Of a stretch of DNA of 64,000 nucleotides, positions 1 to 55,039 are shown piece by piece. The DNA lies in NCBI RefSeq assembly GCF_003097355.1, contig NZ_PYUI01000017.1, positions 1-64,000 on the forward strand, written 5' to 3'. The first letter of the stretch is position 1. Each line of letters opens with the position of its first letter. The translations under genes were made by a program, and so were the position numbers. The stretch comes from Arthrobacter sp. H-02-3. GTDB taxonomy: Bacteria > Actinomycetota > Actinomycetes > Actinomycetales > Micrococcaceae. Under the pieces are notes generated by a model. It had not been told where the DNA came from and did no database searches. It saw nothing but the letters and a program-made list of their open reading frames with translations.

Positions 1-108
<108 letters not shown>

Positions 109-247
109 AAGAAAAACAGACACAACACGCGCCCCCGGGAAAACGGGGAACACACGCTGCACAAAATTTGAAACCAGCCAAAAACACCAGACCACACCAC
201 GGGGTGGCGGGCCCGGCACATTCAACCAATTCAATACAATAAATTGG

Positions 248-49224: not shown

Positions 49225-50538
49225 TCAAGCGTGGGCCAGGCGGCGGCGGCGCATCTGCTGCAGGACGAGTCCTACGAGGCAGAGGGCCACGCCAGCGAGC
49301 CCCACGGCGACGAAGCCGGCCGACGGGCCGATGACGTCGATGAACAGCCCGGCGAGCGGCGCGCCCAACGCCACGCCGCCGGTGAGCGAGGACCCGTACC
49401 AGCCCATAGCCTCGCCGCGGCGGCTCTCGTCAACGAGTTCGGCCACCTTTTCCGAGGCCGCGGACAGCACCGGTGCGCACAGCAGCCCCGGCAACAGCGA
49501 GAGCAGGCTGAGGGTCCAGGTATCGGTCGCGAACGCCATCGGGACCGTCAGCGCTGACATTCCCAACAGCAGGAGGATCGGCGAGACGGGCCGGTGCATG
49601 GCGCCGTAGATTATGCCGCCCACTACCGAGGCCGCGCACCAGAAGACGAAGACGATCCCGATTTCGCCCTCGTGCCCGCCGGTCTGGAGGGCTGCGACGA
49701 TGCCGACGTCGGTGCCGCTGAGGACCATGCCGGCACCGGCCGCGACGGCGAAGACGGCTCCCACGGCGGCGGTGAACCAACTGAAATTGTGTATGACCCG
49801 GTGGCGAAGGCCAGAGCGCCGCTGCCGCCGTTCCTCGGCCGCGGCCGCCAGGGGCGCCAGTTCGGCCGCGGCCTCCTGGAGGTGGGCCGGCGCGGCGGCG
49901 ACGACGGCGGCCTCCGCGCACTCGAGCTCCTCCGCCTCGAGCCCGGCGTCGGGGGCCGCGCTCCGGGTGGGCGGATTAAACCACATGAGGAAAAGTCCGG
50001 AGACGGACGTGGCCACGCCGACTATTGTCAGGCCCAGGACCGACTGCCCGCTGGTGGCGACGACGGCGCCGACTGCGGGGCCGATCATGAAGACCAGCTC
50101 GGTGGCGATGGCATCGAGGGCGAAGGCGGTGCGGCGCTGGTCCCCGGCGGCCAGTACGCCCAGGGACTGCCGCACCACGCTGAAGATGGGCAGCGTGAGC
50201 AGGCCGCCGACGAAGACCAACGGCAGCAGGACCTCGTAGGAGACGTGCGGCACGATGGACCAGATCACGGTCTCGGAGATGACGGACGGGATGAGCGCCT
50301 TGCGCAGTCCCACGGTGTCGACCCGGCGTCCGCGCCAGGGCGCCCCGACGGCGATTCCGATCGTCATGACGGCGGCCGCCGCGCCGGCGGCCGCGTAGCC
50401 CTGGCCGAGGGTCAGGACGATGTGCAGGGTCAGCAGGACGCCGGCCGCCGAGTGCGGTATGCGGGCAATCATCCCGACCAGCAGGAGCCGCCTGATGGGC
50501 CGGACGGCGAGCAGCTCCCGGTAAAGCGCGAAATTCAC
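49225..50538 (-). CDS. MFS transporter
   Basis: A 437-residue 12-helix major facilitator. It has two six-helix halves with a long charged central loop (about 200-245, Ala/Glu-rich). The first half has GRRVDTVGLRKALIPSV between helices 2 and 3. The second half has GRMMIS-like spacing and GEAMGWYGSSLTGGVALGAPLAGL. The family is probably efflux (YcaD/EmrD-like); the substrate is unknown. I use GTG 50538 with AAGGA 9 bases upstream. It lies 63 bases after the SseB gene. Confidence 0.87.
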   Translation of the reverse strand: MNFALYRELLAVRPIRRLLLVGMIARIPHSAAGVLLTLHIVLTLGQGYAAAGAAAAVMTIGIAVGAPWRGRRVDTVGLRKALIPSVISETVIWSIVPHVSYEVLLPLVFVGGLLTLPIFSVVRQSLGVLAAGDQRRTAFALDAIATELVFMIGPAVGAVVATSGQSVLGLTIVGVATSVSGLFLMWFNPPTRSAAPDAGLEAEELECAEAAVVAAAPAHLQEAAAELAPLAAAAEERRQRRSGLRHRVIHNFSWFTAAVGAVFAVAAGAGMVLSGTDVGIVAALQTGGHEGEIGIVFVFWCAASVVGGIIYGAMHRPVSPILLLLGMSALTVPMAFATDTWTLSLLSLLPGLLCAPVLSAASEKVAELVDESRRGEAMGWYGSSLTGGVALGAPLAGLFIDVIGPSAGFVAVGLAGVALCLVGLVLQQMRRRRLAHA

Positions 50539-50601
50539 GACACTACATCCTTCTGGTACTGCCCACGGCAGCACCGGGAGGTCCCCCCGTTGGGCCGTCA
50601 G

Positions 50602-51541: not shown

Positions 51542-52288
51542 TTAGCGGCGGCCGGCGACGTCGAGGGCCTGGGGCAGTGTGAAGTTGCCGTTGTAGAGGG
51601 CCTTGCCGATGATGGCGCCCTCGACGCCGAGCGGCACCAGGGACCGCAGGACCTGCAGGTCCTCAAGGCTGGAAATGCCGCCGGAGGCGACCACCGGCTT
51701 GCCCGTCTTCTCGACCATCTGGCGCAGGAGTTCGACGTTGGGGCCCTGGAGGGTGCCGTCCTTGGTCACGTCGGTGACGACGTACCGGGCGCAGCCGGCG
51801 TCTTCGAGGCGGCCGAGCACCTCCCAGAGGTCCCCGCCTTCCTTGGTCCAGCCGCGGCCGGCGAGCGTGGTACCGCGGACATCGAGGCCGACGGCGATCT
51901 TATCGCCAAAGCGCTCGATTACCCGGGAGGTCCATTCCGGGTTCTCCAGTGCCGCGGTGCCCAGGTTCACGCGGGCCACGCCGAGGTCGAGCGCCTTTTC
52001 GAGGGATTCGTCGTCGCGCAGGCCGCCGGAGAGTTCCACCTTGATGTCCAGCCGCCCCACGACCTCGCGCAGCAGTTCAGCGTTGGAGCCGCGCCCGAAT
52101 GCGGCGTCCAGGTCCACCAGATGCACCCACTCGGCCCCCTGCTGCTGCCAGTTGAGGGCGGCCTCCAGCGGGGTGCCGTAGCTCGTCTCGCTGCCGGCTT
52201 CGCCCTGCACGAGCCGGACGGCCTGGCCGTTGACGACGTCGACGGCAGGCAGAAGCTCGAGTACGGACAGCGGGGTTTCGGTGGTCAT
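51542..52288 (-). CDS. priA: phosphoribosyl isomerase A (HisA/PriA)
   Basis: TIM-barrel sugar isomerase of histidine biosynthesis (ProFAR isomerase). In actinobacteria lacking trpF it also performs the PRA isomerase step of tryptophan synthesis. The 248 residues show [15 protein letters not shown] with catalytic Asp, [26 protein letters not shown] with the second Asp, and [12 protein letters not shown]. Whether it is bifunctional depends on the absence of trpF elsewhere. Confidence 0.94.
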
Positions 52289-52336
52289 CGTGGTGTCCTC
52301 AGCTCGGGATGGTGGGTCAGGAACGCGGCGCGGTCG

Positions 52337-52495
52337 TCAGGACGCCGGCAGGGTCAGAAGATAGGCGGCCAGCAGCGACATGCCGGCCAGGATGTAGAAC
52401 ACGACCTCCACCCAGCGCGGACTTTTCTGCTGGCGGAAGGAGATTGCGCCGCCGACCAGCAGGCCGGCGATGCCCATGAGGACCAGGGACCACAT
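52337..52495 (-). CDS. small membrane protein in the his operon
   Basis: A 52-residue reading frame with ATG at 52495 directly touching the hisH stop (TAGATG) and TGA at 52337. It encodes two hydrophobic helices (about 2-18, MWSLVLMGIAGLLVGGAI, and 31-50, VVFYILAGMSLLAAYLLTLP) joined by the basic loop SFRQQKSPRW. The fixed position between hisH and priA, the coupling to hisH and the clean two-helix pattern argue for a real gene. I recognise no function; membrane location is inferred. Confidence 0.7.
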   Translation of the reverse strand: MWSLVLMGIAGLLVGGAISFRQQKSPRWVEVVFYILAGMSLLAAYLLTLPAS

Positions 52496-53227
52496 CTAGG
52501 CGGTCTGTTCCGGTGCCGCGGGGCGCAGGCTGTCGACCCAGTTGCGCAGGAGCCGGGCGCCGGCGTCGCCGGACTTCTCCGGGTGGAACTGCGTGGCGCA
52601 CAGCGGGCCGTTCTCCACGGCCGCAATGAACGGGGCACCGTGTTCGGACCAGGTCACCAGGGGCGCCGCCATCCGGGGCTGGATGACGTCGAAGTCCCAG
52701 TGCTGGACCCCGTAGGAGTGCACGAAGTAGAAGCGCTCACCCTCGACGCCGGCGAACAACTTGGATCCCTCCGGGACGGAGACGGTGTTCCAGCCCATAT
52801 GGGGCACGACGTCGGCGGGCAGCAACTCGACCTTGCCGGGCCACTCCCCCATGCCTTCGGCTTCCGTGCCGTGCTCGACGCCTGCCTCGAACAGCACCTG
52901 GAGTCCCACGCAGATGGCAAGCACGGGGCGGCCGCCGGCGACGCGGCGGCCGATCATGCGGATGGCATCCACGGACTTGAGCTCGCGCATGACGGTTTCG
53001 AAGGCGCCGACGCCGGGGACCACGAGGCCGTCGGCGTTGAGGACGTCCTCGGGCTTGGAACTGAGGATGACCTCGGCGCCGGCCCGCTCCAGAGCACGGA
53101 CTGCAGAGCGGACGTTGCCGGAACCGTAGTCCAGCACAGTGACGGTCGGCTTTCCCTCCGGAGACACCGGCTTGGTTCCGGCGGCGGGGTCGATGATGGC
53201 CCCGTCGCGCAGGACCGGGCCGGTCAC
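52496..53227 (-). CDS. hisH: imidazole glycerol phosphate synthase subunit HisH
   Basis: Class I glutamine amidotransferase that delivers ammonia to HisF. The nucleophile is in [10 protein letters not shown] and the His/Glu pair in [11 protein letters not shown]. Residues 1-27 are an extension before [16 protein letters not shown] start overlapping the hisB stop (GTGA). The partner hisF is not in the window and probably lies elsewhere. Confidence 0.95.
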
Positions 53228-53850
53228 AGGGCGCCCTTGGTGGACGGGATGCCCTCGACCCGGGGGTCCGGTTCGACGGCTGCGCGCAGGGCCCGGGCGA
53301 ACGCCTTGAACTGGGCCTCGACGATGTGGTGGGGGTCGCGTCCGGCCGTGACGTTCATGTGAAGGCAGATCCCGGCGTGGAGCGTGATCGCCTCGAACAC
53401 GTGGCGGGTCAGCGAGCCGGTGAAGTGGCCGCCGATCAGGTGGTATTCCTGGCCTGCCGGCTCGCCGGCGTGCACAAGGTAGGGCCGGCCCGAGACGTCG
53501 ACGACGGCCTGCGCGAGGGCCTCATCCAGGGGCACGGTCGCCTCGCCGAAGCGGCGGATTCCGGCCTTGTTGCCCAACGCGGTCCGCAGAACCTCGCCAA
53601 AGGTGATGGCCACGTCCTCGACGGTGTGGTGGACATCGATGTGGGTGTCGCCGGTGGCCTTGACGGTCATGTCAATCAGCGAGTGCTTGCTCAGGGCCGT
53701 CAGCATGTGGTCGTAGAACGGGACCGACGTGCTGATATCCGAGACCCCGGTGCCGTCCAGGTTGATCTCGACCAGGACCGAGGACTCACTGGTGGTCCGT
53801 TCCATGCGTGCGGTCCGGCCCTCGGCGGCGGTGGCTCCGGTGTTGCTCAT
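53224..53850 (-). CDS. hisB: imidazoleglycerol-phosphate dehydratase
   Basis: Sixth step of histidine biosynthesis. The two Mn-binding motifs are visible: [11 protein letters not shown] and the related [13 protein letters not shown] region, plus [15 protein letters not shown] near the end. 208 residues from ATG 53850, which has AAAGGA upstream; monofunctional as in other actinobacteria (no phosphatase domain). Confidence 0.96.
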
Positions 53851-53920
53851 GTAGATGTGTCCTTTGGAAGAAGGCAGGGTGCTGGGCAGTCTGGCGGGGC
53901 GCACTGGCTCCCCGTCAAGT

Positions 53921-55039
53921 CTAGGCCTGCGGCGTTGCGTGGCTGGTCAGGATGCGTTCAAGGGCTTCGAGGAAGGCTGTGGTTTCCGTCTCAGTGCCCG
54001 CGGTCACGCGAAGGTGCCCCGGGATGCCGACGTCGCGGATGAGGACGCCGGCGTCCAGTAGGCCCTGCCAGACGTCGTGCGGGCTCTCCAGGCCGCCGAA
54101 GAACACGTAGTTCGAATCGGAAGCCGCCGGCTTGAGGCCCAGGCGGGTCAGCTCGGACACGATCCGGTCGCGCTGGCGCTTGATGTCCTCGACGTCGGCC
54201 ATGAGGGCCACGCGGTGGTGCAGTGCGGCCAGGGCCGTCGCCTGCGTGATAGCTGACAGGTGGTACGGCAGACGGACCAGCCGCAGGGCGTCGGTGACCT
54301 CCGGAGCCGCTGCCATGTACCCGAGCCGCGCCCCGGCGAGGGCGAAGGCCTTGCTCATGGTGCGCGAGACGATGAGCCGCTCCCGGCCGGGCAGCAGGGT
54401 CAGCGCGCTGGGTGTGCCGTCGTGGGCAAACTCGTGGTACGCCTCGTCGACGATCACGATGGTCTGGCTGGCCTGGCCGGCGTCATAGACGGCCTCGACG
54501 ACATCAAGACCCAGTCCGGTACCGGTGGGGTTGTTCGGGGAGCATAGGAAGACAATGTTGGGCTGCAGTTCCCGGACCTGGCGGGCAGCCGATTCCGCGC
54601 TGAGCCCGTAGTCCGCCGCGCGGGCGCCGACGATGTACTCCGTGTCCGTGCCGGCGGCCAGCAGCGGGTACATCGAGTATGTGGGAGGGAAACCGAGGGC
54701 CGTCCGGCCGGGGCCGCCAAAGGCCTGGAGGATTTGCTGAAGGACTTCGTTGGAGCCGTTCGCGGCCCAGATGTTCTCCGCGCCCAGACCGTGGCCAAGG
54801 TACTCGGCCAGGGCTTCCCGCAATTCGGTGAACTCCCGGTCCGGATACCGGTTCAGCCCGGCTGCGGCGGCGCTGACAGCCTCGGTGATGGCGGCGCGGA
54901 CGTCGGCCGGGACACCATGGGTGTTCTCGTTGACGTTGAGCAGAATGGGGACGTCCAGCTGGGGTGCGCCATACGGTCGCAGGCCGCGCAGATTGGTTCG
55001 GAGGGGCAGTCGGTTGAGGCGCTCAAGCTGGTCAGTCAC
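53921..55039 (-). CDS. hisC: histidinol-phosphate aminotransferase
   Basis: PLP class I/II aminotransferase of histidine synthesis, 372 residues. The PLP-lysine context is [16 protein letters not shown], and NPTGTG and DEAYHEF are present. The GTG start is preceded by TAAACT 6 bases upstream and no SD, so this transcript could also be leaderless. First gene of hisC-hisB-hisH-(small ORF)-priA here; hisD is not adjacent upstream. Confidence 0.95.

Follow-up and report, generated by a model that had tools for sequence, protein, structure and literature searches.

The window, by which we mean the whole 64,000-nucleotide stretch of Arthrobacter sp. H-02-3 DNA that was analysed, contains a minus-strand cluster of histidine biosynthesis genes in which a frame of 52 codons lies between hisH and priA. 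We refer to this frame and its relatives as SMP1, a label coined here for the hisH-linked family of two-helix proteins. The features of the locus are:

49225-50574, minus strand: MFS gene, downstream of priA and sseB
51542-52288, minus strand: priA, bifunctional HisA/TrpF isomerase (TIGR01919, hisA-trpF, 385.7 bits; cut-off 306.45)
52337-52495, minus strand: SMP1 gene, 52-aa two-helix membrane protein (sequence, list of open reading frames, orthologs, pN/pS, structure model)
52352-52417, minus strand: predicted second helix, residues 27-48 (AlphaFold2)
52418-52429, minus strand: short loop, residues 23-26, within a basic stretch, predicted to be cytoplasmic (model and charge census)
52430-52492, minus strand: predicted first helix, residues 2-22 (AlphaFold2), with the conserved G15, G16 and S19; Q23 lies just beyond
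52493-52498, minus strand: TAGATG junction, the hisH stop followed at once by the SMP1 start (sequence; abutting or overlapping junctions in relatives)
52496-53227, minus strand: hisH, glutaminase subunit of IGP synthase (TIGR01855, 198.5 bits; cut-off 105.4)
53224-53904, minus strand: hisB (NF002110, 342.6 bits; cut-off 266)
53921-55039, minus strand: hisC (NF002877, 563.6 bits; cut-off 409)

Read along the minus strand, the gene order (assigned with NCBIfam and Pfam) is hisC, hisB, hisH, SMP1, priA, an SseB-domain gene and the MFS gene. The frame preceding hisC shows a sub-threshold match to YneA (42.5 bits against a cut-off of 60) and is itself preceded by lexA on the opposite strand; no hisD was seen beside hisC in the window. 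The SMP1 frame comprises an ATG start, 52 codons and a TGA stop. An earlier note had placed it at 52337-52495 without giving a strand, and had described it as touching the hisH stop within a 207-base gap between hisH and priA. These coordinates are correct and the strand is minus; the ATG starts on the base after the TAG, and the gap indeed spans 207 bases (52289-52495). At the edge of the contig lies the 5' end of a minus-strand 16S rRNA gene (window positions 1-109), the only feature that Rfam recovers in the window at its gathering scores, with nothing at the his genes.

The conservation of the frame was assessed at several phylogenetic depths. A first protein search of 59 genomes (the window's own included) recovered SMP1 in 37 of 37 genomes of the same genus and in 0 of 22 others, and no match contained an internal stop. 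A profile built from ten sequences then matched, at E <= 0.01, 135 of the 149 genomes sampled from the family. Two of these matches (G102 and G164; loci L087 and L086) are false, as they lie away from the his genes in genomes whose real hisH-priA gap contains no SMP1-like frame, and two of the 14 genomes missed by the profile (G090 and G189) do possess SMP1; the corrected total is again 135 of 149, a count in which the doubtful cases were checked by locus and the strong matches only in part. The 14 genomes without SMP1 are all 10 sampled from g30, g33 and g36, together with G060, G158, G186 and G191. When family loci were read directly, a two-helix frame was present in the hisH-priA gap in 98 of 101, a set that includes the window's own locus thrice and some genomes twice, and in which the exceptions are L083, with ambiguous bases, and the two false matches. 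The position of the SMP1 start relative to the hisH stop was read at 94 of these loci: the two abut in 42 and overlap by 1-8 bases in 26, the start lies no more than 15 bases past the stop in 21, and the remaining 5 have some other arrangement.

The substitution pattern points in the same direction. Among 30 same-genus sequences that share one length (of the loci L002-L038, seven were excluded for length, start or duplication), pN/pS is 0.27 in the SMP1 frame (pN 0.128, pS 0.484) against 1.38, 2.14, 1.39, 0.53 and 3.33 in the other five frames of the same alignment; the amino acid sequence of SMP1 is under purifying selection. The earlier note would have given up the gene if relatives did not conserve the frame or had stop codons in it; this check was run and came out in favour of the gene. 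Its short length, and the presence of 98 open reading frames of at least 40 residues, mostly overlapping one another, in the list for the surrounding 12 kb, might suggest that SMP1 is a chance frame and no gene, but conservation in relatives and purifying selection contradict this, and we give the idea practically no weight. The evidence is strong that SMP1 is a real small membrane protein, conserved and associated with the his genes. Its mean identity to the window's protein over 59 family loci is 56% (by global alignment), the corresponding values, from local alignments, being 76% for HisH, 78% for PriA, 84% for HisB and 57% for SseB.

AlphaFold2, supplied with a 40-row alignment, predicts a hairpin of two helices spanning residues 2-22 and 27-48, with a mean pLDDT of 94.8 in the best of five models (93.9, 92.6, 92.5 and 73.2 in the remaining four). 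In an 11-residue span following the GGxxS motif the mean net charge is +1.9, and it is above zero in 37 of the 40 homologues, while both ends of the protein average about zero. The earlier description of two membrane helices with a basic loop is borne out by these results and, given the positive-inside rule, the basic loop is likely to be cytoplasmic. Members of the family have about 50-56 residues, two helices and a basic loop, and the frame in the window conforms to this pattern; its motif, GGAISFRQQ, is of the GGxx[ST]xx(x)Q type and lies at the end of helix 1. The best conserved columns are G15 and G16 (40 of 40 each), Q23 (37 of 40) and S19 (36 of 40), with further conserved small residues at positions 10, 11, 37 and 44; the glycine counts are biased because the program that picked the frames favoured those with GG, a bias of which the profile searches are free. 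A conservation moment was calculated for helix 1 to see whether one of its faces is conserved, and it fell short of significance (P 0.13); no conserved membrane-embedded charge was found in the alignment columns. The conserved residues could either pack the hairpin or contact a partner.

The earlier note had called the protein unrecognised, and this holds for the libraries searched. Nothing scored above the cut-off in Pfam (best DUF2842, 17.1 bits; cut-off 25) or NCBIfam (best LPXTG_anchor, 13.2 bits; cut-off 15.9), PADLOC gave no match, no PDB sequence matched at E <= 1, and PHROGs returned weak matches only. The best of the latter, to phrog_2359 (E 0.039), would invite comparison with phage holins; the gene context here is the his operon. 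Four homologues from other families likewise gave nothing above the cut-off in Pfam and NCBIfam. A Foldseek structure search found no match at E <= 0.001, and the rows reported by VIA-align at Z <= 7.5 (ferritins, c-rings and 7q21_K) are generic hairpins that were not taken as relatives. Searches of the open PMC library gave no description of the gene among the papers that they listed. The SMP1 family is without a name in the libraries searched.

Beyond the family, but within the same order, 22 genomes match at E <= 1.7e-4, and their matches adjoin hisH, except for L117, which lies beside a priA-like gene in a short locus where no hisH was found; three of the 22 were checked for position and strand only. 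Three weaker matches in the order (L242-L244; E >= 1e-3) are not linked to his genes and were dropped, and another (G207, E 0.005) proved genuine on reading its locus (L250). In a survey of the class, for which priA loci were fetched from 60 genomes, many loci contain a similar small frame between hisB and hisH instead, and some of its carriers appear to be Streptomyces-like genomes. A profile of 14 such hisB-hisH proteins (A3), built with no sequences from the window's family, aligns with the family's own profile (A2) with an hhalign probability of 98.7% (P 4e-16). On searching 197 genomes of the class, the A3 profile matched 49 at E <= 0.001, in one place each, and its sole match in the window's genome is SMP1 (E 4.9e-8); a TAG flagged within this match is the hisH stop, since the match begins one codon upstream of the ATG. 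The profile alignment and this match together indicate that the frames before hisH and those after it belong to a single family, which extends across the class. The hairpin and a motif of the GGxxSxxxQ type are kept across families, also where the gene lies upstream of hisH.

Linkage to his genes is the rule in these matches, as it holds for 44 of the 49 and, once the 14 that trained the profile are set aside, for 30 of the remaining 35; the 44 include the window's own, one from the same genus and one with a TnpB-like frame between the small frame and hisH. In this last case, the Streptomyces-like genome G546 (L202, L143), a TnpB-like open reading frame of the IS200/IS605 type, as judged by eye, splits the small frame from hisH within the his operon. 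Of the five unlinked matches two (L236, L237) are spurious, each belonging to a larger frame, and the other three are genuine small homologues that are relocated. The one at L228, from an assembly with 6% contamination, has as neighbours a PIG-L gene and a frame that by eye resembles UvrD. At L229 and L230 (genomes G441 and G513) lone homologues are divergently oriented to an AtuA-family gene, away from the his genes, and offer a possible way into a his-independent role of SMP1. A sample of 149 genomes from the phylum yielded no credible member outside the class; two non-class matches (about 6e-4) both fall within longer open frames (445 and 495 residues).

Among 80 priA loci of named genomes, SMP1 was seen in 39 in the gaps that were read, a count with partial coverage of loci whose hisH is distant from priA. 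The carriers include Arthrobacter, Pseudarthrobacter, Paenarthrobacter, Psychromicrobium, Specibacter, Rothia, Citricoccus and Kocuria, as well as Micrococcus lylae (with GA for GG), Streptosporangium minutum and Actinomadura xylanilytica (with MG for GG). A few more members may be missed, since the GA and MG variants surfaced only in 13 loci examined without regard to the motif. None was seen at the named loci of Nesterenkonia (4 of 4), Microbacterium, Leucobacter, Leifsonia, Cryobacterium, Cellulomonas, Brevibacterium and Aeromicrobium. Judged by PriA, the records nearest to the window are from Arthrobacter. The small frame of Curtobacterium sp. S6 is identical to that of Kocuria massiliensis (L303, L304), and none was seen in Curtobacterium luteum; the name of the Curtobacterium sp. 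S6 record may be wrong.

A second, unrelated family of small membrane proteins, with a basic N-terminus and the pattern ...RxGVLxLSxLLxPVLxxLxFDRR, has its gene immediately upstream of priA in other families of actinomycetes, between hisH and priA at L134, L147-L149, L157, L160, L161, L164, L166, L183 and others. Of 148 genomes of the class, 31 match its profile at E <= 0.001, and nine of these supplied rows of that profile. By hand comparison 29 of the 31 end at most 130 bases from the priA match, one lies about 1 kb away and one is on another contig. Three members searched against Pfam and NCBIfam gave nothing above the cut-off. In some genomes both small-protein families are found around hisH.

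Eleven genomes of the family keep hisH and priA together without SMP1 (six belong to g33, three to g36, and g30 and g27 contribute one each); in ten of them the gap measures 32-139 bases, and in G072 it is about 40 as judged from the match ends. The Nesterenkonia loci mentioned above are a further case of such absence. These losses show that SMP1 is dispensable for histidine synthesis as such and, together with the relocated copies, speak against an obligatory tie between the protein and this pathway. Two further genomes without SMP1, G060 and G158 (L357 and L358; one genus), have a HisH only 43-46% identical to that of the window. Their PriA/HisA is likewise divergent, falling below the TIGR01919 cut-off, and their his operon has perhaps been replaced. 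In G186 no PriA scores above the cut-off, the one weak match being comparable in strength to the second, HisF-like match that other genomes give, and the SMP1 profile finds no copy. The absence of SMP1 from G186 and from the genomes with divergent his genes fits linkage and is no proof of function.

We tentatively propose, at a probability of about 0.4, that SMP1 is a membrane accessory of the HisH/HisF-PriA step of histidine synthesis. The adjacency to hisH, usually with overlapping or nearly touching frames, suggests co-synthesis with HisH, probably through translational coupling at the TAGATG junction. The product would be a small integral membrane hairpin with its basic loop in the cytoplasm and both ends outside, and the cytoplasmic end of helix 1 with the loop (G15, G16, S19, Q23 and the basic residues) might dock or modulate a soluble enzyme. 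HisH is the first candidate for such docking, since SMP1 usually lies next to hisH whichever of the two gene orders is present, and through PriA the proposed role would extend to tryptophan synthesis. In favour of the accessory role we count the conservation and purifying selection, the hairpin with its positive loop, the linkage to hisH in both gene orders, and the precedent of small proteins in other actinomycete amino acid operons, namely TrpM and the PF09534 and HGxxPAAW proteins described below. We consider it doubtful that the class-wide hairpin family tethers or gates the HisH glutaminase/IGP synthase-PriA step at the membrane; were this true, the histidine-tryptophan branch would have a membrane-bound regulatory subunit undescribed in the literature searched. 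The earlier note had suggested feedback or anchoring, either of which would fit the adjacency to hisH; contact with HisH, HisF or PriA is conjecture. Against the accessory role we count the losses, the three relocated homologues, a divergence above that of the enzymes and the nonsignificant helix 1 moment.

Most of these points would suit an autonomous small membrane protein with an envelope or stress function, which would gain steady expression from its place in the his operon and make no contact with histidine enzymes. We regard such a passenger as nearly as likely as the accessory role, given the single-gene homologues relocated in three genomes (L228-L230, the first from the contaminated assembly), the losses in genomes that keep hisH-priA, the fact that SMP1 has diverged no less than the SseB-domain gene and the absence of a his-specific motif; the his linkage of 44 of 49 matches, on either side of hisH and in many families, and the joint absence of SMP1 and an above-threshold PriA in G186 argue against it. 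The spacer hypothesis, in which SMP1 would be translated merely to couple hisH and priA translation with the peptide itself irrelevant, accounts for the overlapping or abutting junctions with hisH and for the position just upstream of priA in the window's family. However, the selection on the amino acid sequence, the persistence of the hairpin and motif across families even upstream of hisH, and the lack of an Rfam match above the gathering score in the his region of the window all run counter to it, and we rate it the least probable of the functional readings. Transport, also suggested in the earlier note, we find improbable, if slightly less so: a membrane protein inside an amino acid operon might be a transporter or belong to one as an accessory subunit, e.g. 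to the downstream MFS protein, whose gene comes after priA and sseB in various relatives as well, but SMP1 has two helices only, lacks a conserved charged residue in the membrane and matches no transporter family above the cut-off in Pfam or NCBIfam. Moreover, deletion of the predicted MFS permease gene cg2301 in C. glutamicum, an unpublished observation quoted in PMC3896937, left a histidine auxotroph growing on histidine.

Whether accessory or passenger, SMP1 is a nameless, conserved and operon-embedded membrane protein of many actinomycete lineages, Streptomyces-like ones included, set within histidine synthesis, which is a textbook soluble pathway. It is small, has one credible match per genome in our searches and should be easily deleted or tagged, which makes the role of small membrane proteins in actinomycete amino acid operons directly testable.

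Among known hairpin proteins, subunit c of the F-type ATP synthase also has two helices joined by a polar cytoplasmic loop. The likeness is one of fold only: c-rings occur among the VIA-align rows at a Z of about 6, within the range of any hairpin, whereas SMP1 has no conserved carboxylate or acidic column in helix 2 (residues 30-48) and no Pfam match to that family at E <= 1. Small multidrug resistance transporters of the EmrE type have four helices; this candidate was rejected, as the SMP1 model has two and no such Pfam family was listed.

Closer parallels come from other amino acid operons. The HGxxPAAW family (NF041681) of the actinobacterial trp operon is similarly small, hydrophobic and uncharacterised, but differs in sequence, motif and pathway; the HGxxPAAW motif is absent from the 52 residues of SMP1, which does not match NF041681 at E <= 1. 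TIGR02234/PF09534 likewise describes a membrane protein of the actinobacterial trp operon without known function, but of about 200 residues as opposed to 52, and SMP1 matches neither model at E <= 1. The trp region of the window's own genome encodes a protein with a PF09534 match above the cut-off (122.7 bits) and a TIGR02234 match below it, and at about 100.3-101.4 kb of G000:C14 (L390) this PF09534-type protein and an HGxxPAAW protein lie between frames that were identified by eye as trpE and trpC. Small membrane proteins of amino acid operons would thus include the PF09534 and HGxxPAAW types in trp, and SMP1 and the second family upstream of priA in his. TrpM (SCO2038) of S. coelicolor, a small trp-operon ORF described as modulating tryptophan synthesis, by authors who report small ORFs in several amino acid operons (PMC5036795, PMC7042404), resembles SMP1 in being a small frame within an actinomycete amino acid operon. 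It differs in that the operon is trp and in that, according to the same reports, the tagged protein was purified from soluble extract and binds PepA; the parallel is one of operon context, and homology is not claimed. In C. glutamicum the his locus also includes non-enzyme genes, cg2302 and cg2301, given as being of unknown function in PMC3896937; unlike SMP1 these are positioned after hisB, cg2301 being the predicted permease mentioned above and cg2302 being likened to SMP1 by its description only. SMP1 is of the same kind as these small proteins of actinomycete amino acid operons, but constitutes an unnamed family of its own.
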